From the NCBI RefSeq assembly GCF_001517975.1, contig NZ_KQ950180.1, positions 314,615 to 378,614 on the forward strand: a DNA stretch of 64,000 nt. The letters are read 5' to 3'. Under the pieces are notes generated by a model, which made no database searches, had not been told where the DNA came from, and saw only the letters and a list, made by a program, of their open reading frames with translations. Each line of letters opens with the position of its first letter. The first letter of the stretch is position 1. Shown here piece after piece: positions 17,612-52,147 of the stretch. Both the position numbers and the translations under genes were made by a program. Source of the DNA: Thermobifida cellulosilytica TB100 (lineage in GTDB: Bacteria; Actinomycetota; Actinomycetes; Streptosporangiales; Streptosporangiaceae).

Positions 17612-18388
17612 TCACCCAGCAGCGTCTTCCTCGTGGACAGCACAGGTGGCCCGGTCGAACGGGCTGCTGGTGATGCGCTTGACCAGCGGTTGCGCTGGCG
17701 CGAAGCCCGGTTCGAGCTGCCGGGCGAGCACGACCGTGACGACCTTGCGCGCCCCGGCCCGTTTGAGCCGGTGCGCCGCTGACTGCGCCCTCGCGCCGCT
17801 CACCCACGTGTCGTCGATGAGCAGGACGTCCGTCTGCGGCTTGGGGTCTGGAATCCTGTCGAGGAGAAACCAGTCCTGGTTGAACTCCCGTGATTCGGCC
17901 GAGATGTCGGTGTTGACGCCGAGGTCGATCCTTCGGAGGCTCTGGACAGTCGGGGTGAGCAGGGCCTGCAACGGATGGATCTGGTCGGGTTTCTTAGTGC
18001 TGGGCACAAAAGCCACATGGGTGAAGGACGCTACTCCTGCCGCGTTCTTGACGCAGCGGATGTGTCGCATGCAGAAGTCCCGGAACAGCACGGTCAGGTT
18101 CTTGCGTGCCGCTTCGCTTGCCGGGGTCTTCTTGTACATCCTCAGGTCACGGCTGTGCTGCCCTTCACTCCCGTTGCGGTAGGTGATCGGGACGACCAGG
18201 TCGGCGAGGAGGCCGCCCGCCCTGTCCCGGGTTTTCTGGCACTGGTAGCAGAGCTGGTACCGCGGACTGGTGGTTGCGCCGAAGCAGGTCCGGCAGACGC
18301 CTTCACCGTGGCGGGGCCCGGCGTGCAGGTAGTTGACCTGGACGTCCACCCGGCTGTCTATCGGGTGGCGGCGCACCTCACCAGCCAA
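17612..18388 (-). CDS. phosphoribosyltransferase-like defence protein (PPRT)
   Basis: This protein of about 258 residues has a zinc-finger-like N-terminus (C32/C35 and C47/C50) and a C-terminal type I phosphoribosyltransferase core. The PRPP-binding motif is VLLIDDTWVSGAR (residues 188-200), the usual two acidic residues plus G-T/S loop. The layout resembles ComF proteins. Pairing with DprA (11-bp overlap here) is the composition of the DprA-PPRT antiphage system (Rousset et al. 2022, as I recall). The start is TTG at 18388 overlapping the dprA stop, or GTG at 18376. The nucleotide or base it acts on is unknown. The last gene of a two-gene operon under a putative LexA box. Confidence 0.75.
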   Translation of the reverse strand: MAGEVRRHPIDSRVDVQVNYLHAGPRHGEGVCRTCFGATTSPRYQLCYQCQKTRDRAGGLLADLVVPITYRNGSEGQHSRDLRMYKKTPASEAARKNLTVLFRDFCMRHIRCVKNAAGVASFTHVAFVPSTKKPDQIHPLQALLTPTVQSLRRIDLGVNTDISAESREFNQDWFLLDRIPDPKPQTDVLLIDDTWVSGARAQSAAHRLKRAGARKVVTVVLARQLEPGFAPAQPLVKRITSSPFDRATCAVHEEDAAG

Positions 18389-19390: not shown

Positions 19391-19406
19391 TAGAACATAT
19401 GTTCTA
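19391..19406. promoter_or_regulatory. LexA-like SOS box upstream of dprA
   Basis: TAGAACATATGTTCTA is a perfect 16-bp palindrome containing GAAC-N4-GTTC, the core of Gram-positive and actinobacterial LexA sites. The central ATAT fits the RNRY pattern; the flanks are A/T instead of C/G. It sits 45 bp upstream of the preferred GTG. Confidence 0.65.
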
Positions 19407-19605
19407 ACATATGGCGGATACCGCTTGGAATGGACCGCAGAGTCAGAAGACTGTTTCTCCCGGAGGGGGAACAGATCACCGACAGCGGTGGCCTTCACAG
19501 GTCGCCGCTCCGCTTCTACGAGGCGCCCCGGGTCGGGAAGCCAGGTACAGCGGCGCAACCGTTATCGCCACGGCAGCGCCCGGGAAGCCGACCGCAAGCC
19601 GCTCA

Positions 19606-21819
19606 TCACCCTCCCGATACGGCCGCGCCCTCCGCGGCCATGGCGCGCACCACCTCCCAGGCGGACTCCAGGTCCAGAGCACGCGCCGCATAGGAGCGCA
19701 CGAGGAGCTCGTCGTCCAGGTACCGGTCGTGTTTGTCGACGGCTTTGTCCACGGCCTGGGCGGCGAGCTCCCACGGCTCCGGCGGCTTGCCCGCCGCGAG
19801 TTCCCGGACCGTCCGCCACAGGTCCTGCGGACGGGTGTCCGACACCGTCAGCGCAGCGCCGTCGTCGCCGACGGTCAGACCGCACCGTCTGAGCAGAAGG
19901 GCGAGGGTGTTCATCACCCGGTCGCCGCGCCACGGGAACACCAGGAGGTCGCTCCCCCAGGCGTACACGGTCCTGTCGGCCAGTCCCATCCGGTGGAAGT
20001 GCCCGCGGCCTTCGGCGAGGAGGTCCTGCGCGGTGGCGTCCAGGTACCTGGGCACGTCCCGGCCGGTGTACAGGCGCCGCATCCGGGCCCGCACCCCGTC
20101 CGACACGTCCGTGTCGGCCCCGGTGAACACGGGCGGCCGTCCTCCGCCTCCCGGTCGCAGGACGACCACCTTCTGCCGGGGGTCGACCTCGACGACCTGC
20201 CACCGGCGCCCTCCGAAGACCAGCAGACTCCCCGGGCCGACATGGTTGTCGACCGGCATGCTGCCCAGGGTCTGCGCGCCGTTCACGAGGCGGTACTCGT
20301 CGACCGTGGTGAACGCGGCGTAGAAGTCGTGCCGGTTGAGCAGTTCCTCCCCTGCCTCTCCCGGGAGCAGCAGGCCGTCCTCCTCCTGGACGAGCAGGTC
20401 GTGGCGGGCCATTGATCGGAGGAGCCGGGCGAACGCGGAGGCGTCCACCCGGTGGAAGGGGCCGCTGCCGCACAGCGTGTCGTACAACTCCCGCGCGCGG
20501 GCGCCGCCCCGCTGCGCGATCACGGAGAGGACCTGTTGGATCAGGGTGGACAGGTGCAGCCGCCCGGTGTCCGGCGGCTCGTACCAGCGTTCCAGCAGCA
20601 GGTCGACCATGGCGACCGTCTGGAACAACCCGGTCCGGAGCATGTCCCCGGGAGGGGTCTCCGGGGTGTTCTCCCGTTCGGCGACGTAGACGCGCAGGGT
20701 TGCGGGTCGGCCGCGCCGCCCCGAGCGGCCGAGCCGCTGCCGCAGTCCGGCGACCGAATCAGGGGCCCCGAGCTGCGCCACGGTGTCGACCAGGCCGATG
20801 TCGATCCCCATCTCCAGGGTGGCGGTACACACGGCCGTGGCGGGGCGGGTGCCGTCCTTGAGGCGTGCCTCCGCTTCCTCCCGCAGCTCCTTGGAGAGGC
20901 TGCCGTGGTGGGGCAGGAACTCGTCGGGCAGCCCGTGCCGCCGGGAGCGCCGGGCCAGCCGGTCGGTGTACTCCTCCACCGCCGCACGCGTGTTGGCGAA
21001 GACGAGGTTGTGGCCGCCCCGCAGGGCCGCCCACAGGTCGTCGGCGATCGACTCCGCCGCGGGCCTGCCCGGCCCTCCCCCGTCGTCGCCCGGGGCCTGC
21101 CGGTCGAGGTAGCCCCGGACCGCGAGCCTGACCCGCTGGCCCGCGTCCTTGCCCACGATGACCCGCACCCGGTCCCGCTCGCCCGGCCGGAGGAAGTCGG
21201 CCGCCGCGGAGAAGTCGCCCAGCGTCGCGGACAGGCCGATCCGCGGCACCCTGCGGCGGCGCAGCAGCTCAACCCTGTGGAGCAGCGACTGCATCTGGGC
21301 GCCGCGCTCGGTGCCCATCAGGGCGTGCAGCTCGTCGACGACGACGTAGTCCAGCCCGGCGAACACCCGGGCGGCGGCGTGCCCCCGGCGAACGAACAGG
21401 GCTTCCAGGGACTCCGGGGTGATCAGCAGGATCCCGTCCGGGGTGCGCAGGACGGCCTTCTTGTCCGCCTCGGCCACGTCGCCGTGCCAGCGGTGCACGG
21501 GCACGTCGATGTGGCGACAGAGGTCGGTGAGCCGCGCGTACTGGTCGTTGATCAGCGCTTTGAGCGGGCTGACGTACAGGGCGCGGATCCCGTGTCCGCC
21601 GCTCCGCTCAGCCAGGGCGGAGCAGACCGGCAGGAAGGCCGCCTCCGTCTTGCCGCTGGCGGTCGCGGCGACGAGGATCACGTCGGAGCGCTCGTCCAGC
21701 ACCGGGCCGATGGCCCGCTCCTGGATGTCGCGCAGCCCGGTCCAGCCCTGTTCCCAGAGCCAACGCTGGACACCGCGGTGGAGCCGCCGGTAGCCCGGGA
21801 CGGTGCCGCTGGCCGCCAT
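19606..21819 (-). CDS. sngC: Lhr-type DEAD/DEAH helicase, Shango-like SngC
   Basis: This 737-residue superfamily 2 helicase has motif I ATASGKT (residues 52-58), motif II DELH (162-165), SATLGDF as motif III, and motif VI QRLGRSGRRGR. An Lhr-type winged-helix and beta region follows the helicase core. It is the size of BrxHI/Lhr-like helicases. The ATG at 21819 follows the upstream stop by one base; there is no separate ribosome-binding site, so it is translationally coupled. Last gene of an operon whose order (TerB-domain protein, ATPase, helicase) equals sngABC of the Shango antiphage system as I recall it. Confidence 0.85.
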   Translation of the reverse strand: MAASGTVPGYRRLHRGVQRWLWEQGWTGLRDIQERAIGPVLDERSDVILVAATASGKTEAAFLPVCSALAERSGGHGIRALYVSPLKALINDQYARLTDLCRHIDVPVHRWHGDVAEADKKAVLRTPDGILLITPESLEALFVRRGHAAARVFAGLDYVVVDELHALMGTERGAQMQSLLHRVELLRRRRVPRIGLSATLGDFSAAADFLRPGERDRVRVIVGKDAGQRVRLAVRGYLDRQAPGDDGGGPGRPAAESIADDLWAALRGGHNLVFANTRAAVEEYTDRLARRSRRHGLPDEFLPHHGSLSKELREEAEARLKDGTRPATAVCTATLEMGIDIGLVDTVAQLGAPDSVAGLRQRLGRSGRRGRPATLRVYVAERENTPETPPGDMLRTGLFQTVAMVDLLLERWYEPPDTGRLHLSTLIQQVLSVIAQRGGARARELYDTLCGSGPFHRVDASAFARLLRSMARHDLLVQEEDGLLLPGEAGEELLNRHDFYAAFTTVDEYRLVNGAQTLGSMPVDNHVGPGSLLVFGGRRWQVVEVDPRQKVVVLRPGGGGRPPVFTGADTDVSDGVRARMRRLYTGRDVPRYLDATAQDLLAEGRGHFHRMGLADRTVYAWGSDLLVFPWRGDRVMNTLALLLRRCGLTVGDDGAALTVSDTRPQDLWRTVRELAAGKPPEPWELAAQAVDKAVDKHDRYLDDELLVRSYAARALDLESAWEVVRAMAAEGAAVSGG

Positions 21820-21820
21820 G

Positions 21821-23197
21821 TCAGAGCCGGAAGTCGACGAGGTCGTCACCGCCGCTGCCCCGAGGCGACCGTCCGGGGGACGGGGCCGCCTCCCCGCCGT
21901 CTCCACTGTCGTAGGGCTCCGGTGCGGTCTCGGGGGCGATGTCGAGTCGGCCGAGCAGTGTCCTCCAGTCCGCGCCGGGGTTCTGTTCCAGCACCGCCAG
22001 CAGGTCGAGGAACTTCTTGATGGTGGTGCGCGGGGTGCGGAAGTACGCCTCGCCGATGCGTTGCGCGCAGTGGTCCATGAAGGCGGTGAGGGCCTCGTCG
22101 GGAAGCAGGTAGCGTTCCGGGTCTCCGTAGGCGTGGACGTGGCGCAGCTTGGTGAGGAGGACGTAGAAGTCCTCCTGGGAGAGGTTCTCCAGCCGCAGCA
22201 CGGGACCGGAGTGGTCGACCAGCCCGGAGTCGGCGTCGGCGTAGGCGTTCTCCTCCAGCCGCGACTGCAGGGCGGTGTAGGAGTAGAGGCCCCGCCGCGG
22301 GTCGGTGAGGAACTCGGGGGTCCCGCCGAAGAGGAAGCCCAGGTGCGTGGCGGTCCCCTGGAAGCTGTCGTTGAGGATGCGCAGGATCTGCTCGTAGTTG
22401 GCGTTACGCGACTGCGTGTGGGTGATCTTGTACAGGTTGACCATCTCGTCCAGGCAGACCAGCAGCCCGCCGAAGCCCGCCATGGTCACGAATCTGGCCA
22501 GCAGTTTGAGGTGGTCGTAGAAGGACGCGTCGTCGATGATCGTCCGCACGCCCAGGGCCTGCCGGGCCTCGGTACGGGTACCGTACCCGGCGCGCAGCCA
22601 GCGCACCGCGTTGCTCTTGAGCTGCTCGTCGCCGGTGTCGTGGCCGCGCCAGTAGGCGGCGACCACCTCGGCGAAGTCGTAGCCGCCGGTGAGTTCGCCG
22701 AGCTGGTCGAGGCGGGAGCGGATCACCTGTTCGACGTCGACGCCCTCGTCCCTGGCCTGGGTGAGGGCCTGGGAGACGAACCGCTCCACCACGCTCGCGA
22801 GGGCTCCTCCTTCGGGTTTGGCGCGGGTGGCCATGTTGGTCATGAGCTCGGCGTAGAGGCTGCGGGCCTGTCCGCCCGTGGACTGCAGCCGCCGGTCCGG
22901 GGAGAGGTCGGCGTGCACGGTGACCAGGCGCTTCTCCAGGGCGATCGACCGGACCAGGTGGAGGAAGAAGGTCTTGCCCGAGCCGTAGCGGCCGATGACG
23001 AACCTGCTGCCCGCTCCCCCGCCGGCGATCCGGTTGATGTCGTCGATGAGGGCCTTGATCTCCTCGACCCGCCCCACCTGGATGAGGTGCTGTCCGCGGC
23101 GGGGCACCATGCCCGCGCGCAGGGACTGGACGACCGCGTCGCGTTCTCGCGGGCGGATGGCCCCCCGGTGTGTGGTGCGGTGGTGCGCTTCACTCAT
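21821..23197 (-). CDS. sngB: BrxD/DUF2791-type ATPase, Shango-like SngB
   Basis: This 458-residue P-loop ATPase has Walker A GRYGSGKT (69-76) and Walker B LLVCLDEM (245-252). The opening RPRERDAVVQSLRAGMVP and the segment LRLENLSQEDFYVLL are characteristic of BrxD-like (DUF2791) ATPases of BREX type 2 and Shango loci. The C-terminal 40 residues are Gly/Pro/acidic and probably disordered. The start codon overlaps the upstream stop by 8 bp, indicating coupled translation. The protein probably forms a complex with the neighbouring helicase. Confidence 0.88.
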   Translation of the reverse strand: MSEAHHRTTHRGAIRPRERDAVVQSLRAGMVPRRGQHLIQVGRVEEIKALIDDINRIAGGGAGSRFVIGRYGSGKTFFLHLVRSIALEKRLVTVHADLSPDRRLQSTGGQARSLYAELMTNMATRAKPEGGALASVVERFVSQALTQARDEGVDVEQVIRSRLDQLGELTGGYDFAEVVAAYWRGHDTGDEQLKSNAVRWLRAGYGTRTEARQALGVRTIIDDASFYDHLKLLARFVTMAGFGGLLVCLDEMVNLYKITHTQSRNANYEQILRILNDSFQGTATHLGFLFGGTPEFLTDPRRGLYSYTALQSRLEENAYADADSGLVDHSGPVLRLENLSQEDFYVLLTKLRHVHAYGDPERYLLPDEALTAFMDHCAQRIGEAYFRTPRTTIKKFLDLLAVLEQNPGADWRTLLGRLDIAPETAPEPYDSGDGGEAAPSPGRSPRGSGGDDLVDFRL

Positions 23198-25859
23198 CCA
23201 ACAGCTCCTGCAGCACGTCGGTGTCGATGTCCATCGGGTCGTCGCCGTCGATGACCGGGTTTCCGGTGACGTCGAGCGCGAGTTCGTTGAGGGTGTCGAC
23301 CGCGCCGTCGGGCATCAGCCCGTGGCGGGCGGCGAGCGCGTGGAAGTCACTTCGCGGCCACGTCGACCGTTCGGCGAGGGAGCGGAGCAGCGCGGAGTGC
23401 GCCGCGTCCAGGCCCGCGACCGTCGGCGGCGCGTTCTGCGGGGCGGGGGGCCGCCCGTTCTGCTGCGGGGCCGCCGGTGCGGCGGGCGCCTGCCGGGCAG
23501 GGGTGTCCGGCGGCGTGTCCTCGTCGGTGAACACGGCGCTGAGCAGGGCGGCCACTTCTTCGCTCTCGCGCAGCTTCGCTGCGACGGCGGCTTGGTCCAG
23601 GCCGATGCCCGCCGTCGGTTTCCGGCCCGTCGTCGCGGTGCTTCCGGGCGGCCGCCCCAGCGTGTGCGTGGGGCGCAGCCGCTGGTGGACGCGGTCGGGG
23701 TCGAGTCCCAGCAGCTCGTAGATCCTGCTGAGCGTCTTCACCTCCCGCGGGGAGGTGACCCCGTCGGCGGTGGCGACGGTGACGAGGAAGTCGCCGATGG
23801 AGGTGCGTTGGGCCCGGGTCAGGGCCTCCAGCCGCTGTCGGATGCCGGCGAGTTTGGCCCCCGACTCGACCGCCCACGTCAGGTGGGCGTTCAGGCGGGT
23901 CTGTTCCGCCTCGGTGAGGTGGAGCGCCGTCTGCAGGTGGCGGACCAGGTGGCGCTGCTCGTCCGCGTGGAACTCCCCGTCGGCGATCGCGACCGCCGCG
24001 GCCAGGTGCACCAGGACCGCGGTCGCCGTGTAGGCGGGGGACGGGGCGTCGGAAGCGGCTTCGCCCGTGGGGAACAGGACCGCGGGGCCGGGTTTCAGCG
24101 CGGGGCCGCCCCAGCGCACGTCGGGTTCCACGCCGATCCCGTGGCGGGCCAGGAACCCGGTGAGGGCGGTCGCTTCCCGCTTGGTCATCTTGTTCGGGGC
24201 GGCGGTGGGCCAGCGCGCGATGAGTTCGGCGGCGTTGACGACAGCCGGGGCGTCTCCCGTGAGCCGGCCCCGGACCCAGTCGAGGAACGCGCCGACCTCG
24301 CCATCGGAGGTGTCGACCAGTTCGGCGGGGAGCAGCGCCGCCGCAGCCAGGGTCCCCGCGCTCTCCGGGTGGCGGCCCAGCCAGCGGCTGTAGGGTTCCA
24401 GTTCGGCCGTGACCTGGTCGACCAGTTCGGCGAGCTTGCGGGTGGGGGCGGCCTGTTCCACGACGTCGGGCACGTCGAGGCCGGTGACGTCGACCGTCGT
24501 CCCCAGGAAGCCCTCGCTGGCGGGCCGGTAGTGCCAGTGCAGCCGGGTCTTCCCCGGGCGCACAGCCAGGCCCCGGGGGTGGCGTTCGGCGAACCGGAGG
24601 CGGAACAGGCTCTGGAACTCGTCGGGACAGCGCTGCTGCGGTGTCCTGGGGTGGATCTGCGGGTGGTACCAGGCCCAGGAGAGCGCCCAGTCGGCGGGGA
24701 CCCGGCGGCCTTCCTGTGCCATCCGGCCGAGGGCGAGGCGCAGCCGGAACGGGGTCGGCCACCGCTCCCCGCCGTAGGGCGGCGGAGTCCGTTCCGCCTC
24801 CTCGTCCTCTGTCAGGATGTCGAGGACGGTCAGGAAGTCGGTGGCGTAGCCGTGGAACGACGAGTTCTCCCCGTAGATCGACAGCAGCCGGAGCACTTCC
24901 GCGCGGATTCCCGGAAGCTCTCCGCGCAGGTGCTTCTGCGCGCCGATGTCGCAGAGCACGCGCCGTTCCAGACCGTAGAAGAAGAGGAAGACGTATCCGA
25001 TGGAGGCCCGGGGGTCGCGGCGGCCGCCCGCCAACCAGGAGAGGTAGGCGGCGCGTGCGCTGGGCGTGATGGAGTCGTAGGACGGCCAGTAGTCCATGGT
25101 CCGGCCGGTGCGGTCCGGGCTGTTCCGGTTGACCCGCAGCTGCGGGTTGATCAGCGCGGGTTCCGTGCTGCCGTTGTCGGCCCACAGTTCCCTGCCCACG
25201 TACAGCATCCCGCCGGGGATGTCGTATCCCTGGACGTGCACGGTTTCTCCGGCGGGGATCCACCGGCCGACCTTGGGGACCTGGTCGGTCCGCGGTCGGG
25301 GCGCCGCCTGCTCGGGGGCGGGTTTCGGGCGCGGCGTCGAGGGGGGACGGGAGTGCTGCACGGCAGCAGGACGGGGCGGTTTCGCCGTGGCGGGAGGAGT
25401 TGCGGGCGGTGCCGACGGCCGCGGCCTGTCCGTACCGGTCTCCGCCCGGGACGGGGCCGCGGGTGCGGGGATGTGGGGCAGTCCGTGCCGGGGTCGAGGG
25501 CCCGCGTGGGGGTCGAGGGGCGGCCTCGGTGCGGGAGGCAGGCCGCCGCCGAGCGCCGCCGCGCTGTTCGGAGCCGTGGGCCAGTGCCGGGGAGGCGCCT
25601 GCGGTCCGGTCGGCCCGTGGCCCGGCCGGTTCCTGCCGATGCGGAACGCGAACCACACGGCCGCCCCGCCGACGGCGACGAAGACCGAGCCCACGACCAT
25701 CGTGGCGAAGGCAGCGGCCACGTCTCCGACCAGCAGGCCGCCGAACGCAGCGAGGCACAACACTCCTCCCAGCAACGCGCCCAGCACACCAGGAATCCCG
25801 AGGACGACGATTCCGGCGATGCGTGCCGCTGAAGACCGCGTGTGTCCGCCACCGTGCAT
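23190..25859 (-). CDS. sngA: membrane TerB-domain protein, Shango-like SngA
   Basis: This 889-residue protein has two N-terminal transmembrane segments (about residues 13-67), a long Pro/Ala-rich linker, a TerB-N domain (YDIPGGMLYVGRELW onward, including RVNRNSPDRTGRTMDYWPSY), a central TerB-like helical domain (LAAAVAIADGEFHADEQRH) and a TerB-C segment at the end (MDIDTDVLQELLDE). TerB-N/TerB-C proteins form operons with ATPases and helicases; the trio here matches Shango. Placing a membrane anchor on the first subunit suggests that the complex acts at the membrane, which is inference. ATG at 25859 with an AGGA-type site. GC content equals its neighbours. Confidence 0.85.
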   Translation of the reverse strand: MHGGGHTRSSAARIAGIVVLGIPGVLGALLGGVLCLAAFGGLLVGDVAAAFATMVVGSVFVAVGGAAVWFAFRIGRNRPGHGPTGPQAPPRHWPTAPNSAAALGGGLPPAPRPPLDPHAGPRPRHGLPHIPAPAAPSRAETGTDRPRPSAPPATPPATAKPPRPAAVQHSRPPSTPRPKPAPEQAAPRPRTDQVPKVGRWIPAGETVHVQGYDIPGGMLYVGRELWADNGSTEPALINPQLRVNRNSPDRTGRTMDYWPSYDSITPSARAAYLSWLAGGRRDPRASIGYVFLFFYGLERRVLCDIGAQKHLRGELPGIRAEVLRLLSIYGENSSFHGYATDFLTVLDILTEDEEAERTPPPYGGERWPTPFRLRLALGRMAQEGRRVPADWALSWAWYHPQIHPRTPQQRCPDEFQSLFRLRFAERHPRGLAVRPGKTRLHWHYRPASEGFLGTTVDVTGLDVPDVVEQAAPTRKLAELVDQVTAELEPYSRWLGRHPESAGTLAAAALLPAELVDTSDGEVGAFLDWVRGRLTGDAPAVVNAAELIARWPTAAPNKMTKREATALTGFLARHGIGVEPDVRWGGPALKPGPAVLFPTGEAASDAPSPAYTATAVLVHLAAAVAIADGEFHADEQRHLVRHLQTALHLTEAEQTRLNAHLTWAVESGAKLAGIRQRLEALTRAQRTSIGDFLVTVATADGVTSPREVKTLSRIYELLGLDPDRVHQRLRPTHTLGRPPGSTATTGRKPTAGIGLDQAAVAAKLRESEEVAALLSAVFTDEDTPPDTPARQAPAAPAAPQQNGRPPAPQNAPPTVAGLDAAHSALLRSLAERSTWPRSDFHALAARHGLMPDGAVDTLNELALDVTGNPVIDGDDPMDIDTDVLQELLDE

Positions 25860-26346
25860 GGAGTCCTACCTCTGACCGGGGGAAGTCAAGGGCTGCTGAT
25901 GTTAGGGCCAACCAAGCCGGGCGAGCCGGAAAACAGCTCGAATTACTCAAATTTCATGATTTTCAAGGCGGGCAGTGCGCCCTCTTGAGCCAACAGGAAG
26001 GCTGCCTTTTCTCCTACATTGTCCCCCAATACACCTTTTCGGCCACGGTGTCGGAGGACCGCTTCAACGCGTCCCGGCCTCGGGGAATCGCGGTAGCGGG
26101 ACCGCCTGGCCTCCGGCTTCGGGGTCGGGGGGACAACGGTCTCCGGGGCTCTGCCGGACTCGGAGACTTTCGGAAGTCCCTTTTCCTTCTTCCTCGATCC
26201 TGGAGATCGCTGATCACAATCCCCGCCACCGCTGTGCGCACTGTGCGTTACCCGGAGCTGCCCAGGCGCGGGCTGCCCGGCCGTTCCTCCCGCATCGGCG
26301 CGCCTCGCCCGCCGACGTGCACCGCTCCCGCCTACGTGGCCGCCGC
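25860..26346. other. gene-free interval between sngA and the dprA fragment
   Basis: No convincing gene. It begins with a possible minus-strand -10 box for sngA (TAACAT at 25899-25904) and an AT-rich patch (25925-25965), then ordinary GC-rich DNA up to the repeat border at 26347. Frames present have codon use unlike real genes of this window. I found no insertion-sequence ends. Confidence 0.6.
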
Positions 26347-26808
26347 GGCGGACTCTGCGAGGATGTCGTCCACGATGTCCATGAGGTCCGCCATCCCCGC
26401 CACGACGTACACCCCGGGGCGTTGGGCGTAGTCGCGTGCCCACTGGTTGGCCAGGAGCTCCCGCGGGAAGACCACCGGACGTCCGTGTTTGAGGGCAAAC
26501 CGTGCCTGGATGCGCGCACCGCTGTGCTCCCCGGCCTCGACGACGACGGTGGCGGCGGCGTAGCCGCTCATCACCGCGTTGCGCATCGGGAAGCTGTGCC
26601 GGGTGGGCGGCGCGTCGGGCAGGAACTGGCTGAGCACCATCCCCCGCTCGGCGATCTCGTCCTGGAGCCTCCGGTTCTCCCGGGGATAGCAGCGGTTGAT
26701 CCCGGTGCCGATGACGGCCACGGTCCGTCCGCCCCGTCGCAGCGCCGCGGTGTGCGCGGCCGTGTCGATTCCGGCCGCGAGCCCACTGACGACCGTCACT
26801 CCCCTGTC
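26332..26808 (-). pseudogene. internal dprA fragment, second copy
   Basis: This truncated dprA copy encodes only the central Rossmann part (MTVVSGLAAG to DDILAES, then a new five-residue tail AAAAT). Over the 462-bp repeat it is identical to the intact gene. It lacks the N-terminal 151 residues and the C-terminal MTADELVDSLETVELGW, so it is probably non-functional. Identity without drift implies a recent event. Its position on the far side of the Shango operon is discussed under findings. Confidence 0.85.
26347..26808. repeat. direct repeat, copy 2 (dprA fragment)
   Basis: 462 bp, identical by eye to 18432-18893, same orientation. It marks the right boundary of the unit that contains the Shango-like operon. 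Confidence 0.95.
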
Positions 26809-27006
26809 GCACCCCGCACCCGCGCTGGAACCCGAGTTCTCCCCAGGGCAGATGCTGTCGGAATGGATTTCCGCGACAGAAGGCCGTTTCTCCCCAACCC
26901 CCTCGATTCAGCACCGCTTCGGACACTCCGCTCGTAAGGTAGGAGACGCCTTCCCCGCCCTCCGAAGGCAGCGTTTCCGCCCGACGTCTGGAGAAGACCC
27001 CCCATC

Positions 27007-29100
27007 ATGCCGCAGCTCGCCATCGACAAGGATTTCCTGCAGCGGTACGCGAAGCTCGACAAGCGCGTGCAGAAGGCCGTGGACGAGGCGCTCCACAAGT
27101 TCGCCACCAACTACTACGCCGGCGGGCACCTGGAGAAGATCGCCGACGCACGCGACCCCCGGGTCCGCACGCTGCGCATCACCCAGGGCTACCGGGGCGT
27201 GGTGCTCGCTCCGGAGAAGGGCGACACCTACCTGCTGGTCACGGTGCTGCCGCACGACGACGCCTACGCCTACATCCGCAACAAGCGCTTCTCCGTCAAC
27301 CAGGCGCTGGGCGTGCTGGAGGTCCGCGACGAGGCCGGGCTGGAGACCATGAGCGGTGTGCTCGCCTCGGTTGCCGAGACCACCGAGACCCGCCTGTTCG
27401 ACCACGTGCCCGACAAGCACCTGTTGCAGTTGGGCGTCGACCAGCAGGTCCTGTCGATCGTGCGGCTGCTGACCGACGAGGCCCACCTGGACGCGCTGGA
27501 GGCCCTGCTGCCCCAGGCCCAGCACAACGCCCTGGTGGCGCTGGCCTCGGGGATGACCGTGGAGGAGGCGTGGGAGCAGCTCAGCCGGGACCTGGCGGAG
27601 GAGTCCGCGCCCGAGCAGGTCGACCCCGACGACCTCACCGCGGCGATCCGACGCTCCCCCGACCGGGCGGTGTTCGTGGAGGGCCCGGAGAGCCTGCGCG
27701 AACTGCTGGAAGCCCCGTTCGACCTGTGGCGGGTGTTCCTGCACCCGCAGCAGCGCCGGATCGCCTACCGCGACTACAACGGACCGGCGATGGTCACCGG
27801 CGGCGCGGGCACCGGCAAGACGGTGACGGCGCTGCACCGCGTCGCCCACCTGGCGGCCCGCTACGACTCGGGGCGGCCGATCCTGCTGACCACGTTCACC
27901 AAGTCCCTGGACGCGGCGCTGCGCGCGCAACTGGAACTGCTGGTCAAGGATCCCGGGCAGCGGGACCGGGTGGACGTGCGCAACCTCGACAAGGTCGCCT
28001 ACCAGGTGGTGGCCGAGGACCGCGGCACCGACCCCAAGCCGTGCCGTGCCACGGTCCTGGAACCGCTGTGGGACGAGGCGGGCGCGGACAGCGGGTTCTC
28101 CGGCGCGTTCCTGCTCACCGAGTGGGAGCAGGTGATCCTCGCCCAGAACCTGCGCACCGAACGCGACTACCTGGAGGCGCCGCGGCGCGGCCGGGGCGGG
28201 CGGCTCGGCCCCGACCAGCGGCGCCGGGTGTGGCGCGCGGTGCTGGCCGCCACCGGCCGGATGGCCGAGTCCAACCTGTGGTCGTTCACGCAGATCGCCG
28301 CGGAGGCCGCCGACATCCTGGACCGCACCGGGCAGCGGCGGTACCGGCACGTGGTGGTGGACGAGGCCCAGGACCTGCACCCGGCGAAGTGGCGGCTGGT
28401 GCGGGCGCTGGTCGCCGAGGGGCCTGACGACCTGTTCCTCGCGGGTGACCCGCACCAGCGCATCTACGACCACCGGGTGTCGCTGAACTCGCTGGGCATC
28501 AGCGTGCGGGGGCGCAGCCGCCGCCTGACGGTGAGCTACCGCAGCACCCAGGAGATCCTGTCGTGGGCGGTGCGGGTGCTGGGTGCCGCGCCCGTCACCG
28601 GCCTGGACGACCTGGCCGACGGCCTGGACTCCTACACCTCCCCGCTGCACGGGCGGCGGCCGGTGGTGCGGGGCTTCGCCGACCGCGGGGCCGAGCTGGA
28701 CGCGCTGGTCGACCAGGTGGAGGAGTGGCTGACGCAGGGTGTGGAGGCCGCCTCGATCGGGATCGCCGCGCGCACCCGGTTGCTCTCCGACGAGGTCGCC
28801 GAACGGCTGCGGGAGGCGGGCGTCGACTGCTGCTCCCTGACGGACAGACCGGGGGTTCCGGGGGTGCGGGTGGGCACCATGCACGGCATGAAGGGCCTGG
28901 AGTTCCGGTGCGTGGCGGTCGTCGGTGTGGACGCCGACCTGGTGCCCTACACCGCCCAGGTCACCGACCGCGCGGAGGACCCCGTCGCGCACGGCCACGA
29001 CCTGCAGCGGGAGCGGAACCTGCTGTTCGTGTCGTGCACCCGGGCACGCGACGCGCTGTACGTGTCGTACAGCGGCGAGCCGAGCCCGTTCCTGCCGTGA
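27007..29100 (+). CDS. UvrD/Rep-family helicase with RelE-like N-terminal domain
   Basis: This 697-residue protein begins with a RelE/ParE-like segment (residues 1-105: FLQRYAKLDKRVQKAV, YYAGGHLEKI, VRTLRITQGYRGVV, DDAYAYIRNKRFSVN), as seen in a group of actinobacterial UvrD-like helicases. The helicase core has Walker A GGAGTGKT (265-272), Walker B VVVDEAQD (449-456), and late motifs VGTMHGMKGLEF and RNLLFVSCTRARD. It should translocate on single-stranded DNA. The ATG at 27007 has GGAGAAG upstream. Its 3' end faces the DUF262 nuclease gene 39 bp away, and it is the leftmost member of the DISARM-like cluster. Whether the N-terminal domain still has RNase activity is unknown. Confidence 0.85.
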   Translation: MPQLAIDKDFLQRYAKLDKRVQKAVDEALHKFATNYYAGGHLEKIADARDPRVRTLRITQGYRGVVLAPEKGDTYLLVTVLPHDDAYAYIRNKRFSVNQALGVLEVRDEAGLETMSGVLASVAETTETRLFDHVPDKHLLQLGVDQQVLSIVRLLTDEAHLDALEALLPQAQHNALVALASGMTVEEAWEQLSRDLAEESAPEQVDPDDLTAAIRRSPDRAVFVEGPESLRELLEAPFDLWRVFLHPQQRRIAYRDYNGPAMVTGGAGTGKTVTALHRVAHLAARYDSGRPILLTTFTKSLDAALRAQLELLVKDPGQRDRVDVRNLDKVAYQVVAEDRGTDPKPCRATVLEPLWDEAGADSGFSGAFLLTEWEQVILAQNLRTERDYLEAPRRGRGGRLGPDQRRRVWRAVLAATGRMAESNLWSFTQIAAEAADILDRTGQRRYRHVVVDEAQDLHPAKWRLVRALVAEGPDDLFLAGDPHQRIYDHRVSLNSLGISVRGRSRRLTVSYRSTQEILSWAVRVLGAAPVTGLDDLADGLDSYTSPLHGRRPVVRGFADRGAELDALVDQVEEWLTQGVEAASIGIAARTRLLSDEVAERLREAGVDCCSLTDRPGVPGVRVGTMHGMKGLEFRCVAVVGVDADLVPYTAQVTDRAEDPVAHGHDLQRERNLLFVSCTRARDALYVSYSGEPSPFLP

Positions 29101-29139
29101 CGGCGGTGGGGGCGGGTGCGGCCCGCCCCCACCTGCCGG

Positions 29140-31419
29140 TCACAGGAGGTCGCGGACGCGGCGGCGGGCGGTCTCCAGCTCCTCGGGGGTGAACAGCTTG
29201 GCGTAGGCGGGGTGGCTGAGCACGACCGCCTCGACGGTCAGGTCGGGCCGTCCCAGCTCCCACAGCTTGACGAAGCCGTCGGAGATGGTCGGCTTGGACA
29301 GCAGCAGTTTGGCGGTGGCCAGGGCGCCGCGCTCGTTGAGCATCTTCCGGAAGTAGGTGGGCCGGTACCCGGTCTCCGCCCAGGTGCGGTCGCACACCGA
29401 GTTGAGGGCCTCGTCGAACGCGGCGAGGATCTCCGGGTCCGCTCCCCCGTCGGCGGCCCCCGCTCCGGCGGGCGGGGCCGACTCCGTCTCCCCGGCGGCC
29501 TTGGCGTTGCGCCGCCGCGCGTACTCCAGCAGCGCGTCGGCGGAGGTGAACACGCGGTATCCGAGCCCTTCCAGGGCGGCTTCGTCGGCCTCCTCCGGGT
29601 CGAGTTCCAGGACCACCGGGTCGTCCTGGCCGGTCTGCAACCCGTCCGGCCAGTACGCCTCGGCGACGGCCAGAGGGCGCCCGTCGGAGGGATCGGCGAT
29701 CTCGACGTTGCGTTGCGGCGCGGCGCAGCCGAGCGCGGCCAGCTCCTCGACGAGGGCGTCGAGCTGGGCGGCGCGGGCGTCGCGCTCGGTGTCCTCCTCC
29801 TCGACCACGGCGACCCGTCCCAGCGCGACGCTCTCCGCGGCCTCGGAGCGCCCCTCGCGGAGCTCGTCGAGGAAGCGGTTGGCGGCGTCGGCGAGCAGCC
29901 GGGTGCGTTCGCTGAGGAAGTCCTCGTAGCGCTCCACCTCGCGCAGCGCAGGGTCGAGGGGGATCCACTGGGAGGCCAGCGCTCCCGGGTTGCGCTGCTC
30001 GACCTCGGCGAAGTACTCGCGCGGTTCGCGCTTGCCGATCTTCAGGTTGGTGTCCTGGGTGAGGAAGCAGAAGTTGGCGACCGCGTTGACCTGGCGGCGG
30101 TTGTAGTGCTGCTTGAGCAGGGCCTTGGGGAAGATGTGGTGCACCTGGAGGCTGGTGAGGCGGCCCAGCATCTCCTTGCGCAGCGGCAGCCCGGAGCCGA
30201 AGTCCTGGGCCTGGCCGACCCGGGTGAGCAGGTACAGCATCGGGTAGAAGCGGGAGCCCATGGTGGAGCCGGAGAAGTCGACCGGGCGGACGGTGAGGGC
30301 GCCGCCCCGCCACTGCTCCAGCACCCGGATGAGCCCGTCGACGCCGTCGTCCTGCACGGCCGCGTAGTCCTGGGCGAGCATCGTCTCGGTGGAGCCGGAG
30401 TGCCGTCCCCACAGGGCGGCGTGGACGTACCAGTAGAGGACGCGGTCCCGGTGCCGGGCGTCGTCGAAGTCGCCGCCGTTGAGGTGGAGCAGGCGGCAGA
30501 CGACGGGGACGGCGTAGCGGCCCATGAGCACCCGGTCGTGGTCGAGGCCGAGGCGTCCGGAGACGGTGTCGAGGAACTTGCCGATGTAGTCGACGGCGGC
30601 GTCCAGCGCGTCGCGGAACTGCTGCGGGCTGACCTCCTCCAGGGCGGAGAAGAAGGCGCGCCCGGTGGCGACCGCGGTGACGCAGCGCAGCAGCCAGTCG
30701 AGGCTGAAGGAGAAGCCCATCTCCTCCCAGCGGGCGAGGTGGCCGCGCATGATGCCGCGCGCCTCCGGCCACTCGGCGCAGATGTTGGCGAGCGCGAGGT
30801 CACCCTTGGACAGTTTGGTGCCGCCGGAGTTGACCCGGTTGAAGATGTCGACGACGACGTCGACGGTCTTGTCCCGGCCGGTGATCTTCTCCTCGTGGAA
30901 GTCGCGTTCCTGGATGGCGTGCAGTTTGGTCAGCCGCTCCATCACCGCGATCATGTCGGTGCCGGGGGCGCTCGGGTCGAAGGTGGAGAGCGCGGCGCGC
31001 AGCCCTTCGGTGAACAGCCGGGACACGTCCACCCAGCGCGAGTCGCCGCGCATCTTGGTCGCGGTGTAGAACTCGAAGACCTCGGTCTCGACGTTGAAGT
31101 GCAGGCCGGTGAAGGCGGTGGCGTCGCCTTCGAAGAAGGCGGGCGGGCGCCCCCGCATCACCCCGTACAGCGAGGTGATGCGCTGCTGCCCGTCGAGGAG
31201 CAGCGCCCGGGTGCCGGAGACGTTGGCGGTGACGCCGCGGACTGCTTCCGGGTCCACCTCGGTCTCCCACACCAGCAGCGAACCGACGGGGTACCCCAGG
31301 TAGAGGGAGCGCATCAGTCCTCTGACCTGGTCGCGGTTCCACACGTAGCCGCGTTGGAACTCGGGCAGCAGCATCGCCCCGCTGTCGATGTGGTCGAGGA
31401 TGGTGGAGAGTTTGGTCAT
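29140..31419 (-). CDS. DUF262/HNH GmrSD-like nuclease
   Basis: This 759-residue protein has a DUF262 N-terminal domain with LPEFQRGYVW (residues 18-27), DGQQR (76-80, nucleotide-binding or hydrolysing motif) and NRVNSGGTKLSKGDLAL (194-210). An HNH/DUF1524-like nuclease motif follows: VHHIFPKAL at 426-434, then N450 and N458. This is the architecture of GmrSD-type modification-dependent restriction enzymes, which cut glucosylated hydroxymethylcytosine DNA. The C-terminal 100 residues (TYFRKMLNERGALATAKLLL, LFTPEELETARRRVRDLL) form a further helical domain I cannot name. ATG at 31419 with GAGG. It lies 84 bp after the acidic gene upstream and probably shares its transcript. Confidence 0.85.
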   Translation of the reverse strand: MTKLSTILDHIDSGAMLLPEFQRGYVWNRDQVRGLMRSLYLGYPVGSLLVWETEVDPEAVRGVTANVSGTRALLLDGQQRITSLYGVMRGRPPAFFEGDATAFTGLHFNVETEVFEFYTATKMRGDSRWVDVSRLFTEGLRAALSTFDPSAPGTDMIAVMERLTKLHAIQERDFHEEKITGRDKTVDVVVDIFNRVNSGGTKLSKGDLALANICAEWPEARGIMRGHLARWEEMGFSFSLDWLLRCVTAVATGRAFFSALEEVSPQQFRDALDAAVDYIGKFLDTVSGRLGLDHDRVLMGRYAVPVVCRLLHLNGGDFDDARHRDRVLYWYVHAALWGRHSGSTETMLAQDYAAVQDDGVDGLIRVLEQWRGGALTVRPVDFSGSTMGSRFYPMLYLLTRVGQAQDFGSGLPLRKEMLGRLTSLQVHHIFPKALLKQHYNRRQVNAVANFCFLTQDTNLKIGKREPREYFAEVEQRNPGALASQWIPLDPALREVERYEDFLSERTRLLADAANRFLDELREGRSEAAESVALGRVAVVEEEDTERDARAAQLDALVEELAALGCAAPQRNVEIADPSDGRPLAVAEAYWPDGLQTGQDDPVVLELDPEEADEAALEGLGYRVFTSADALLEYARRRNAKAAGETESAPPAGAGAADGGADPEILAAFDEALNSVCDRTWAETGYRPTYFRKMLNERGALATAKLLLSKPTISDGFVKLWELGRPDLTVEAVVLSHPAYAKLFTPEELETARRRVRDLL

Positions 31420-31503
31420 CGGTGGCCTCGTTGGGGGATTCGGTGCTCGTCGTTCCTGAGTCCTGTCCGGCCGGCTGTGCGGCGCCCGCCGGGCCGGGGC
31501 CGG

Positions 31504-32229
31504 TCAGAAGATCTCCAGTTGTCCGGGGGTGGGCCGCACGACGGCCCTGATGTGGCCGAGGGTCTCGGGGGACACCTCGTAGAGCAGGTCGACGTCGTCG
31601 GTCCACACCGCGAAGGCCGACCGCAGCGCGTCGGGGAGCCGCCGGAGCTTGGCGAGTTCGAAGGTGAGCGCGGAGTCGTCGCCGATCTCGGCCGCGGAGC
31701 GCACCGCGGTCCAGACCTCGGCGAAGCTGGCGAACAGGTCCCGGAGGTGGGCGGCGCAGCGGTGGATCCGGTCGAGGAGTTCGGCCGCGGTCTCCTCCCG
31801 GTCCGCGTCCTCCTGCTCTTCGCCGTCGGCCGCCGGTTCGGGGAGGTCGTCGTCGGCGAAGAGCGCGTCCTGCTCCTCGTCCTCCGCCCACCGGGGGATC
31901 TCCCCGCTGGGCGTGTAGCCGACCTTGCCGGGCACGGCCCAGTAGTCGGTGCCCCAGTCGTCGAGCAGCACGTCCTTGGCGACCCGTGCCAGGGCCGCGT
32001 AGACCCGCAGCGGCGTCTCGTCGAGGTCGCGGACGGTGGCGCACAGGTCGTCGACGTACCGGCTGATCCGGGGGTAGCGGTAGTCGTCCAGGTCGTCGCC
32101 GATGCGCGCCGCGTAGGCCCCGATGCGCCGGGAGATCTCGGTGAGCGGCTGGTCGAGGGCGACGAATTCGGCGTTCAGCCGTTTCTTGAGCTCCTTGTAC
32201 TCCTCAAGCGCTTCCCTGTCCCTCAGCAC
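31504..32229 (-). CDS. acidic protein of unknown function in the DISARM-like cluster
   Basis: This 241-residue protein is not one I recognise. The N-terminal 100 residues are helical with a charged repeat (EALEEYKELKKRLNAEF), an acidic low-complexity stretch lies at 120-145 (EEQDALFADDDLPEP), and the C-terminal part is again helical. There is no signal peptide, membrane segment or nuclease motif. It starts 103 bp from the SOS box and is divergent from the large helicase gene, so one intergenic region could control both arms of the locus. The acidic patch could mimic DNA or bind a basic partner, which is speculation. Confidence 0.7.
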   Translation of the reverse strand: MLRDREALEEYKELKKRLNAEFVALDQPLTEISRRIGAYAARIGDDLDDYRYPRISRYVDDLCATVRDLDETPLRVYAALARVAKDVLLDDWGTDYWAVPGKVGYTPSGEIPRWAEDEEQDALFADDDLPEPAADGEEQEDADREETAAELLDRIHRCAAHLRDLFASFAEVWTAVRSAAEIGDDSALTFELAKLRRLPDALRSAFAVWTDDVDLLYEVSPETLGHIRAVVRPTPGQLEIF

Positions 32230-32320
32230 GGGGCCTGCTCCCTACAACCGGTTTCCAGACGTGGGAACCGTAGCAGCCGAATAGGACATTCCGATTGCTT
32301 TTCGCACTCGCTTTATTTCT

Positions 32321-32334
32321 CGAACACCTGTTCG
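32321..32334. promoter_or_regulatory. LexA-like SOS box before the DISARM-like helicase
   Basis: CGAACACCTGTTCG carries the full CGAAC-N4-GTTCG half-sites of the Gram-positive SOS box; with the flanking T it matches 11 of 12 fixed bases of the mycobacterial TCGAAC-N4-GTTCGA. It lies between the divergent acidic-protein and helicase genes, 11 bp before a good -35 box. Confidence 0.72.
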
Positions 32335-32345
32335 CTAATTCCGTT

Positions 32346-32432: not shown

Positions 32433-37667
<5,235 letters not shown>

Positions 37668-38057
37668 CCGTCTCCGGCGGTCTTGGCACCGGGGGCCGGT
37701 GCTCCGTGCTCCTCGGCCTCCGGTGTCGATCCCGACGCCTGCTGTCCGCGCTTCCCAGTCCTCCGGAGACGCCCGCCCTTCCCCCGCCCTCTGGAAACAT
37801 CCGCCTTCCCAACCCCTCCCCCACCGCAGCCCAGGTCAAAGCTGCCGGGCCTCCCGGCCGACGCCCACCCGCCACCCATCCACCTGGAGAACCCCGAACC
37901 TGAAAACCACTCCTCCGCTTCAGCCGCGCTCCGCACCCGGGCGACAAAAGCCCTCAACCCGCCCCGACTGTCCCCCCGAATCTCTAAACTGACCTGGTAT
38001 CCCCCGATCGACGACTGCGAGGTTTCCCGTGTCCCCTGCTCTGCGAGGTGGTGCCGC
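37668..38057. other. gene-free leader of drmD with a dispersed repeat
   Basis: 390 bp without a credible gene. Holds one copy of an 86-bp dispersed repeat (37786-37871) and further Pro/C-rich unit-like pieces around 37756-37785. The part from 37900 to 38057 probably carries an internal promoter, but I see no clear -35/-10 pair. Confidence 0.6.
37786..37871. repeat. 86-bp dispersed repeat, copy A
   Basis: Same length as 47335-47420 and about 87 percent identical by eye. It begins GCCCTCTGGAAAC, contains AGCCCAGGTCA and GCTGCCGGGCCTCCCGGCCG, and both copies lie in gene-free gaps. Confidence 0.8.
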
Positions 38058-40913: not shown

Positions 40914-43900
40914 GCACCGTGACGTCTGTGACCACGACGGCGGCGACGGCCGCCGCCGCGACCCCGCGCGGCTACTCGTCGGTGCGCGTGGTCGGTTCGC
41001 TGCTGACCGCTGACCTGATCGGCCGGATCGGCTCCGGCGACCCGCAGTTGAAGGGCCTGCGTTCGGAGGACTACGGCCTGGTCCCGGGGCGGCGGCTGGG
41101 TGAGGCGGCGAGCCGCCGCTGGGAGGAGCTGCTCGGCGTGTACCGGGCGTTCCAGCAGCAGCTCGCCAAGGCCGGACCGGACGAGTCGCTGGTGACGCTG
41201 ACCCGGGAGCGCTGGCTGCTGCCGCTGTTCGACGCGCTCGGTTTCGGCCGCCTCCAGTACCGGCGCGGCGGCCTGACCGCCGAGGGCCGCACGTTCCCGG
41301 TCAGCCACCTGTGGCACAACGTGCCCGTCCACCTGGTGGCGTGGGGACGCGACCTGGACAAGAAACGCGGCGGCAACGGAAGCGCGGGCGGCGACCGCGC
41401 CCCCCAGTCGATGCTCCAGGACTTCCTCAACTCCAGCGAAGCGCACCTGTGGGGCATCGTCAGCAACGGGCAGAAGCTTCGGCTGCTGCGGGACGCCGCC
41501 TCCCTGGCGGAGGCCGCGTTCGTCGAGTTCGACCTGGAGTCGATGTTCGACGGCGAACTGTACTCCGACTTCGTGCTGCTGTTCGCGCTCGCCCACGCCT
41601 CCCGGTTCGAGCCGCACACCCCCGAGGCCGAGGAGGAGGATGAGGGGCGGGCCCCGGCGAAGGCGAGCGTCGCGGACTGCTGGATCGAGAGGTGGCGGGT
41701 CGAGGGCGACCGCACCGGAATCCGGTTCCGCGACAAGCTCCGCGACGGCTTGCAGGCGGCCCTGGAGGAGCTGGGCACCGGCTTCCTGGAAGCCAACGAG
41801 GAGCTGCGGGAGAAGCTGCGCGCCGGGGAGGTGTCCCGCCACGACCTGCGCGACGAGCTGCTGCGGCTGGCCTACCAGGTGCTGTTCCTGTTCGTCGCCG
41901 AGGACAAGGGCGTACTGCTCGACCCGGACGCCGACGAGACGGCACGGGAACGCTACCGCGTCTACTTCTCCACGCAGCGTCTGCGCCGTATCGCCCTGGA
42001 GCGGGTGGGCGACCGCCACGACGACCTGTGGCGGACCCTGCTGATCGTGCTGGACGCGCTCGGCTCCGACGAGGGCCGCAAGGAGTTGGCGCTGCCCGCG
42101 CTGGGCGGCCTGTACTTCACCGCCGAGGCGTTGGGAGACGGGGGCGCGCGGCCGGAACTGCTGCGCGGCGGGGGGATCACCCTGTCCAACCGGCGGCTGC
42201 TGGCCGCGGTGCGCCACCTCACCCGGGTCAAGGACGAGAGCGGACGCTGGCAGCAGGTGGACTACCAGCACCTCGACGCCGAGGAACTGGGGTCGGTGTA
42301 CGAGTCGCTGCTGGAGCTGATCCCGTATGTCGACTCCGCCAACCGCGCCTTCGAACTGCGCAGCGCCGCCGGGAACGACCGCAAGACCACCGGCTCCTAC
42401 TACACGCCGTCCTCCCTGGTGGAAACCCTGCTGGACAGCGCACTCAACCCGGTCATCGAGCGGTACTCCGAGCGGGGAGTTCCCGACGACCTGCTGAAGA
42501 TCACCGTGTGCGACCCGGCGTGCGGCTCCGGACACTTCCTGGTGGCGGCGGCCCGCCGCATCGCCCGCGCCTACGCGGTCCTGGAAGCCGGGGACGAGGA
42601 GCCCACCCCCGACGCCATCACCAGGGCCATGCCGAAGGTGGTGCGCCACTGCATCTACGGTGTGGACCTCAACCCGCTGGCGGTGGAGCTGACCAAGGTG
42701 TCGCTGTGGCTGGCGTCGCTGGAGCCCGGCAAGCCGCTGGCGTTTTTGGACGCGCACGTCAAGGTCGGCAACGCGCTGCTGGGCGCGACGCCGAAACTCC
42801 TGGACGGCGGCATCCCGGACGGGGCGTTCAAGGCGCTGGAGGGCGACGACAAGAAGTTCGTCGGCGTGCTGAAGAAGCAGAACAAGCAGGAGCGCCAGAC
42901 CGGGCAGATCAGCGTGCTCGCCGCCGGTGAGGGCTTCTCCAGCAACGTGGAACTCGCCGAACGGGCTCGCCGGATCAACCGGACCGCCAAACCGGGCCTG
43001 GCCGGCATCCGCGAGCAGGCACGGCAGTGGCGTGAGCTTGAGGCGTCCCCGGAGAAGCAGCGCCGCAAGCGGGTCGCTGACGCCTGGTGTGCGGCGTTCG
43101 TCTGGCCGAAGCGCCCCGACGCTCCCGCCGCCATCACCACCGAAACCGTGCGGCAACTCGAAGAGGCAGGCGGAACCCTCACCCCGGAGCAGACCAGGCA
43201 GCTCGACAACCTGGTCAAGAGCTACCACTTCTTCCACTGGCACCTGGAATTCCCGGAGGTCTTTCCCGGGATTGACGAGGACGCGGAGGACTACAACCCG
43301 GACACGGGATGGCAGGGCGGCTTCACGTGCGTGTTGGGGAACCCGCCGTGGGAGCGGGTGAAACTCCAGGAGAAGGAGTTCTTCGAGTCGCGCGCCCCGG
43401 AGATCGCCAAGGCCCCGAACAAGGCCAAGCGGGAAGCCCTCATCAAGCAACTGGGGGAAACCGAGGAGGGCGCATACCTGCTTCGCGAATTCCAGGAGGC
43501 CAAGCACCGGTCCGAGGGGATCAGCCTGTTCCTGCGCGAGTCGGGGAAGTACCCGCTGAACGGACGCGGCGACGTCAACACCTACTCGGTGTTCACGGAA
43601 CACGGCAGGGAGCTGCTTCACCCTCGCGGCAGGCTCGGCATCATTGTTCCCACCGGGATCGTCACCGACGCCACCACCCAGCATTTCTTCAAGGACGTCG
43701 TGAAGCGGCGGGTTCTGGCGACTGTCTACGACTTTGAGAACCGAAGCAAAATCTTCCCTGCCGTTGACAGCCGCGTGAAGTTCACCCTGCTGACCCTGGC
43801 TGGACGCGCAGCCAACGTTGAGCGCGCCGAGTTCGCGTTCTTCCTGCACAGTACAGCCGAACTGAGCGACCCGGAGAAGGTCTTCACTCTCAGCGCCGAG

Positions 43901-52079: not shown

Positions 52080-52147
52080 GTCGCCCTCCTCGCCGTGCGT
52101 GGGGTACACCTCCGGAGGCCAGTTAATGACCTAGAGGACTGACTTAG

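Follow-up and report, generated by a model that had tools for sequence, protein, structure and literature searches.

Two palindromes in a defence island of Thermobifida cellulosilytica TB100 are, in our reading, operators of the SOS repressor LexA. They lie in a 64,000-nucleotide stretch of contig NZ_KQ950180.1 (assembly GCF_001517975.1, positions 314,615 to 378,614), referred to here as the window and numbered from its first letter. Site 1 would serve the operon of ShosA, a DprA-type protein, and ShosT, a phosphoribosyltransferase, and site 2 the divergent operon of a 241-residue protein and a GmrSD-like protein. We give this reading as a whole a probability of about 0.85. Support for LexA control is strong at site 1 and good at site 2; from the sequence comparisons we infer LexA binding, induction, the order of events set out below and a defence role in this host. 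A preliminary description of the window, made from its letters, had proposed LexA control of two defence operons. The boxes themselves and the recurrence of site 1 at 39 of 84 ShosA-type loci speak for that proposal; the helicase that it named as the target of site 2 is not supported by the comparisons.

Fit of both sites to the SOS boxes of the host

Both palindromes were found where the preliminary description had placed them, at 19391-19406 and 32321-32334. The bare core GAACN4GTTC occurs four times in the window against 0.85 times in shuffled sequence, and one of 100 shuffles reached four. Genome-wide (4.43 Mb) there are 80 matches, against 10 for the reversed pattern, and many of the genomic matches retrieved fall within reading frames. 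One of the four window matches, at 44735, is inside a methyltransferase gene. Another, at 26828-26839, lies between a ShosA remnant and a UvrD-like gene, so that the earlier statement, of no further such site in the gene-free intervals scanned, is wrong. Elsewhere in the genome, CCGAACCGATGTTCTT is present in three identical copies inside 200 bp (contig C3, 300296-300497), in a stretch to which codon bias assigned no gene.

Since the bare core is only weakly enriched, a 16-bp matrix that includes the flanks was built from SOS boxes of the host genome and recA promoters of relatives. It was trained on boxes of recA, lexA, ruvC and DUF6504 loci; identical recA boxes were entered once, except for that of the host, which stood in both lists and was entered twice. 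The host LexA has both the LexA_DNA_bind and the Peptidase_S24 domain. Its gene is preceded by the boxes TCGAACGTTTGTTTGA and TAGAACTGGCGTTCGA, in a region shared with a divergent LysM gene, and the boxes of recA, ruvC and a DUF6504 locus are CCGAACCTTTGTTCGA, GCGAACGAGCGTTCGA and TAGAACATGTGTTCGA, respectively. Across 30 recA loci, host included, 23 have a full-core box, two a box with 7 of the 8 core letters, and five none, although two of these five match only from residue 93. The host recA itself (contig C1, 220539-222506) is an 806-residue frame with a split RecA profile and a LAGLIDADG_2 domain between the parts, resembling an intein.

Based on this matrix, site 1 scores 22.5 bits and site 2 21.9, inside the range of the training boxes (18.0-25.1). 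The third-best score in the 64 kb scanned is 11.0 bits, and 2 Mb of simulated sequence contained zero matches scoring as high as the two sites. The 16-mer of site 2 is identical in every letter to the recA box of a relative that was used in training, and stands in the host genome at position 145903 of contig C3. The preliminary description had named an abundance of equal sites at genes outside the SOS response as a ground for refuting its proposal. Thirteen of the 41 own-genome sites scored (a subset of the 80 core matches) reach 18 bits; six are at recA, lexA (2), ruvC and two DUF6504 loci, two are sites 1 and 2, and five are at other genes. A further 18.5-bit box (contig C1, 726776-726791) precedes a 414-residue gene without known family, beside a type II restriction enzyme gene. 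By the host SOS-gene matrix both sites are LexA-type boxes, in core and flanks, as had been proposed.

The possibility that both palindromes are chance occurrences without function is extremely remote in our estimate. It can draw on the mild enrichment of the bare core and on the many core matches inside reading frames. Against it are scores that equal those of the recA and lexA boxes and that no match in the simulated sequence reaches, the boxes at 39 of 84 ShosA starts, and the arms of site 2, which are kept among related genomes while the spacer changes.

Recurrence of the box at ShosA genes

Site 1 directly precedes a DprA-phosphoribosyltransferase gene pair, in agreement with the preliminary description. 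The second protein contains the motif VLLIDDTWVSG and is 30% identical to three annotated phosphoribosyltransferases of such pairs, from Gordonia phages and a Pseudonocardia plasmid; it has no match at E ≤ 1 to three proteobacterial phosphoribosyltransferases of such pairs, and no Pfam match. The window thus has the DprA gene and the adjacent phosphoribosyltransferase gene by which ShosTA is recognized, with a weak match to ShosT itself, and a toxin-antitoxin or antiphage activity is putative. The TA flanks of site 1 are unusual against the common TCGAAC form, and are also found on one side of host lexA and DUF6504 boxes. A genome of the same genus has the copy TAGAACATGTGTTCTA at the same ShosA gene, and among loci near the host the TA-flanked form occurs on both sides in two and on one side in a third.

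Homologues were collected from 396 genomes of the phylum, 394 of the class and 341 of the family, in overlapping samples with different E-value cuts. From the phylum sample the top 30 loci were used and divided by rank and phosphoribosyltransferase neighbourhood into 10 ShosA-like loci, window included, and 20 housekeeping loci. A locus was called boxed if a site of at least 14 bits lay from -100 to +90 relative to the estimated start; where the match to a locus sets in only late in the protein, the position of its start is itself estimated. The ShosA set left out one match of the family sample (genome G1004), which starts 106 bases from the end of its contig, and the remnant in the window. 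Of the distinct chromosomal ShosA-type loci, 39 of 84 are boxed with the window included (38 of 83 without it), where 0.41 are expected from the site density in the other parts of these loci (7 sites across 272 kb) and 0.15 from Markov shuffles. Counted by sequence clusters, 37 of 80 are boxed. The majority sequence of the 39 boxed loci is TCGAAC-RTRT-GTTCGA, and in 25 of the 27 boxed loci inspected the box either overlaps a start codon in frame or has one within the next 60 bp. None of the 20 housekeeping DprA loci is boxed, but these controls come from distant and often AT-richer lineages, and the rest of the same ShosA loci is the better control. We conclude that site 1 is, by this comparison, a recurring operator of ShosA/ShosT operons.

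Among actinobacterial copies on mobile elements two of ten are boxed, those of Gordonia phage Vasanti and a Pseudonocardia plasmid. Vasanti (MK359313.1) and Gordonia phage Bosnia are both temperate-type actinophages with an integrase and the gene pair; the Vasanti box scores 24.5 bits and Bosnia has none. Three Streptomyces plasmid copies have in common TTCGAACA ahead of CCGGGGCC at the start of the gene, an unpaired half-site. Streptomyces venezuelae was considered as a bridge to published LexA chromatin immunoprecipitation sequencing and dropped, as its plasmid pair is without a strong box. Loss of the box together with ShosT, an idea suggested by a congeneric genome (G398), also fails: a ShosT gene was detected at 18 of 23 loci with the box and at 27 of 33 without it (p = 0.75).

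Outside the Actinomycetota a different motif stands at some of the related genes. SOS boxes are known to vary with lineage, from CGAACN4GTTCG in Bacillus to GTTCN7GTTC in Caulobacter and TACTG(TA)5CAGTA in E. coli (PMC9578287); GTTCN7GTTC is also given as an SOS box in PMC12700426. In five of five plasmid DprA operons (four from Rhizobiaceae and one from Sphingobium) GTTCN7GTTC lies 107-110 bp upstream, and its spacer is not the same among them; their second gene bears the annotation phosphoribosyltransferase in Sphingobium and hypothetical in the four Rhizobiaceae. Burkholderia phage Mana has TACTGTATGCATAAACAGTA, of the form CTGTN8ACAG, 99 bp before its DprA gene. No exact match to any of these box types is present in a cyanobacterial copy or in one from a Geobacillus phage.

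We also examined 80 IMG/VR loci found by ShosA alignment, on viral contigs whose hosts are not known. Near the start, CTGTN8ACAG occurs 11 times against 0.58 expected from the same contigs and GTTCN7GTTC 8 times against 0.45, an enrichment of both proteobacterial motifs of about 18-fold, while GAACN4GTTC occurs 0 times (0.64 expected) and six control patterns gave 0, 0, 0, 0, 1 and 0. The 11 CTGTN8ACAG sites represent 8 distinct 20-mers, one locus (L371) having the length and box of Mana, and one of the 8 GTTCN7GTTC sites (L360) is the Enterobacter sequence. In a 90-sequence tree, read by leaf order and without support values, the GTTCN7GTTC loci fall among the alphaproteobacterial references, with the exception of the Enterobacter group, and 9 of the 11 viral CTGTN8ACAG loci are near the Burkholderia phage. 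The alphaproteobacterial motif at three Enterobacter-type copies (L332, L333 and L360) is perhaps due to chance or transfer.

Site 1 might alternatively be the operator of a dedicated palindrome-binding regulator of ShosA/ShosT with a motif resembling that of LexA, as the TA rather than CG flanks that site 1 shares with its close relatives, and the occurrence of the motif at one gene family, would allow. We consider this highly unlikely. CG flanks prevail at boxed ShosA loci (32 of 39 have C at position 2), and the TA half-site is itself present in the host lexA and DUF6504 boxes. Moreover, the motif turns to GTTCN7GTTC in an alphaproteobacterial clade and to CTGTN8ACAG in others; it shifts with lineage as that of LexA does (PMC9578287), which therefore argues for LexA over a dedicated regulator.

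Probable target of site 2 and history of the island

The preliminary description had placed site 2 before a DISARM-like helicase. The site indeed lies between two genes that diverge: its 16-mer is 97 bp away from the ATG of the helicase and 90 bp away from where the 241-residue gene begins on the other strand (gene models to the left of site 2 were set by codon-position GC). Of 149 genomes searched, four contain the 241-residue gene; all four belong to the genus, and the gene is boxed in three of them, as ACGAACAGGCGTTCGA in genome G396 and GCGAACAAATGTTCGA in G397. The CGAAC and GTTCG arms are constant in the three genomes, and the spacer and outermost base vary. In G397 the box and the 241-residue gene are kept without the helicase of the window, and similarity to the window starts at the box; the helicase relatives of that genome are elsewhere. 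In none of 80 helicase relatives (56-76% identical) do the upstream sequences, of up to 300 bp, hold a full-core box; a match to 7 of the 8 core letters is present in three, and in three the upstream sequence is shorter than 300 bp. Because no helicase relative is boxed and G397 keeps the box without the helicase, site 2 likely goes with the divergent 241-residue and GmrSD-like operon rather than with the helicase, and its assignment to the helicase by position alone was dropped.

That site 2 is a LexA operator of the helicase operon, alone or together with the divergent one, is a reading we regard as rather doubtful. Apart from the position of site 2, a same-genus helicase orthologue (L075) has TCGAACGCCTGTTCGT at the same distance; against this, the box is confined to the window and that orthologue among 30 helicase loci, the wider set of relatives has none, and in G397 the box has stayed with the 241-residue gene.

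Of the N-terminal and nuclease domains of GmrSD, only GmrSD_N is above the Pfam threshold in the 759-residue protein. A general SOS box at GmrSD genes was rejected, as none was found in 17 orthologous loci. The genome has a second GmrSD-like gene (61%; contig C1, 1246718-1248958) and a second DruE-like helicase (61% identical N-terminus; contig C8, 60179-61630), neither with a strong upstream box.

"DISARM-like" proved a loose term for the helicase, which matches DruE best and DrmA at 2.8e-14 only. The next gene is DpdE-like, with a DrmD match as well, and the third matches DrmMI; no DrmB or DrmC is among the matches listed for the three genes.

The 26828 site, GAACCCGAGTTC, aligns with the box of the G397 ShosA gene. 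From this alignment and its score of 6.0 bits only, we regard it as probably a decayed copy of the ShosA box. The gene order in G397 is box, 241-residue gene, truncated GmrSD, UvrD-like gene, box, ShosA and ShosT, and in the window a Shango operon lies between the ShosA remnant, beside the UvrD-like gene, and the intact ShosA. A 462-bp part of shosA is duplicated without difference on both sides of Shango (18432-18893 and 26347-26808). Shango may have entered by recombination at shosA. Genome G396 has the boxed 241-residue and GmrSD operon and no ShosA match; in G398 ShosA is unboxed, and no ShosT was detected. In G397 the ShosT match (L242, 13507-14279) runs over two frames in tblastn and may be frameshifted, and GmrSD is cut to its last 115 residues with the box still kept. 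The matrix scan of the window found no strong box for Shango, nor for the other defence pair of the island, the IetS (subtilase) and IetA (AAA ATPase) genes at 48538-52109.

Several observations weigh against LexA control of the two operons. At 45 of the 84 ShosA loci there is no strong box at the start, and eight actinobacterial mobile copies have none: Gordonia phage Bosnia and two Rhodococcus, two mycobacterial and three Streptomyces plasmids, that of S. venezuelae among them. The same-genus genome G398 has no box at either ShosA or the 241-residue gene. Of the plasmid copies from alphaproteobacteria, another four lack GTTCN7GTTC. Where the host is known, gammaproteobacterial copies have the exact CTGTN8ACAG in none of seven cases, one with only 147 bp of upstream sequence, and two of the seven, from Enterobacter, have GTTCN7GTTC, the wrong motif for the host. 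At site 2, none of the 17 orthologous GmrSD loci elsewhere has the box or the 241-residue gene, and a conserved -10-like TACGGT about 47 bp downstream is not overlapped by the box. Finally, the bare core is only mildly enriched in the window, and the matrix contains a recA box identical to site 2 in addition to the host recA box twice.

Table 1 Coordinates of the sites and genes discussed, in window numbering
Feature	Position	Strand	Basis
ShosT-type phosphoribosyltransferase, 258 aa, TTG start, overlaps shosA end	17612..18388	-	PADLOC PsyrT 5e-7, ShosT 1e-5
ShosA-type DprA, 335 aa	18378..19385	-	PADLOC ShosA 1e-65; Pfam DNA_processg_A
Site 1, LexA-type SOS box TAGAACATATGTTCTA	19391-19406	.	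22.5 bits; 5 bp before ShosA ATG
Shango operon SngA-SngB-SngC, complete, upstream of site 1	19606..25859	-	PADLOC 2.8e-104, 6.5e-179, 7.7e-275
ShosA remnant	26347..26808	-	Sequence comparison; 462 bp identical to 18432-18893
TGGAACCCGAGTTCTC, probably decayed box of ShosA remnant	26826..26841	.	6.0 bits; aligns with G397 ShosA promoter
UvrD-like helicase beside remnant	27007..29100	+	Same ShosA neighbour in G397
GmrSD-like protein, 759 aa	29140..31419	-	GmrSD_N PF03235 8.8e-27; PADLOC HEC-05 2.8e-37
241-aa protein, no family found, first gene of site 2 operon	31504..32229	-	Codon-position GC
Site 2, LexA-type SOS box, 14-mer CGAACACCTGTTCG; 16-mer TCGAACACCTGTTCGC	32321-32334; 32320-32335	.	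21.9 bits
DruE-like superfamily 2 helicase (earlier "DISARM-like helicase")	32433..37667	+	PADLOC DruE3 2.4e-100; DEAD, Helicase_C, MZB
DpdE-like helicase	37683..40913	+	PADLOC DpdE 9.2e-271, DrmD 1.2e-81
Eco57I/DrmMI-like methyltransferase	40910..44992	+	PADLOC DrmMI 9.5e-61

Proposed mechanism and relation to known systems

In an undamaged cell, LexA would hold both operons low. Single-stranded DNA arising from damage or phage replication would lead to RecA loading and LexA self-cleavage, and the operons would then be made. A LexA box at the start codon of ShosA could block transcription directly. For ShosA and ShosT this would amount to a two-step gate on one signal, single-stranded DNA, with transcription released first through RecA and LexA and the toxin activated second, as others propose, after the DprA partner senses phage DNA or DNA-protein complexes. 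More generally, we lean towards the view that ShosTA-type modules are damage-gated and have repeatedly acquired the LexA operator of their own lineage, among Actinomycetota and alphaproteobacteria as well as in other proteobacterial phages.

The timing of ShosTA production, and how the pair is kept harmless, are not explained in the literature consulted, and a search for LexA or SOS control of ShosTA found no paper, subscription journals lying largely outside that search. The recurring LexA operator would be a simple answer, tying production to the single-stranded DNA signal of phage replication or DNA damage. If this is true, production of the pair would be confined to cells in which RecA encounters single-stranded DNA, DprA would add a second check linked to the same signal, and the SOS response would be the time at which the module is armed by temperate phages such as Vasanti and Mana. 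This would bear on the behaviour, upon induction, of temperate phages and plasmids that carry the pair, and it shows that promoters, and not genes alone, can be used to read a defence island.

The genes around site 2 depart from the systems that they resemble. DruE-like, DpdE-like and DrmMI-like genes stand in a row and recall Druantia, Dpd and DISARM, but form a mixed set that, by the best matches among those listed, is not a standard DISARM. Such helicases have been grouped as YprA-like, and a DISARM-related array has been named ARMADA (PMC13192584). GmrSD type IV restriction shares the GmrSD_N domain with the 759-residue protein, whereas the gene preceding it here is restricted to the genus and, like the box, is absent from the 17 orthologous loci.

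The ShosA/ShosT pair resembles ShosTA, including the pair borne by a P2 phage, in its adjacent DprA-like and phosphoribosyltransferase-like genes, and differs in the LexA-type operator that precedes it, the available text on ShosTA describing no SOS control (PMC9122126). In RqlHI/PsyrTA, too, a DprA-like protein restrains a phosphoribosyltransferase-containing toxin; there the toxin is a fusion of a RecQ-like helicase with a phosphoribosyltransferase, its activity itself induces the SOS response, and the word LexA is absent from the available text (PMC4670107). The LexA regulon of S. venezuelae, with the motif tCGAAC-N4-GNNCGa and the targets recA, lexA, ruvC and dnaE2 (PMC9380542), differs in that its main text, supplementary tables being outside this scope, mentions neither dprA nor "phosphoribosyl"; it agrees with the host of the window in the type of motif and in the shared targets recA, lexA and ruvC.

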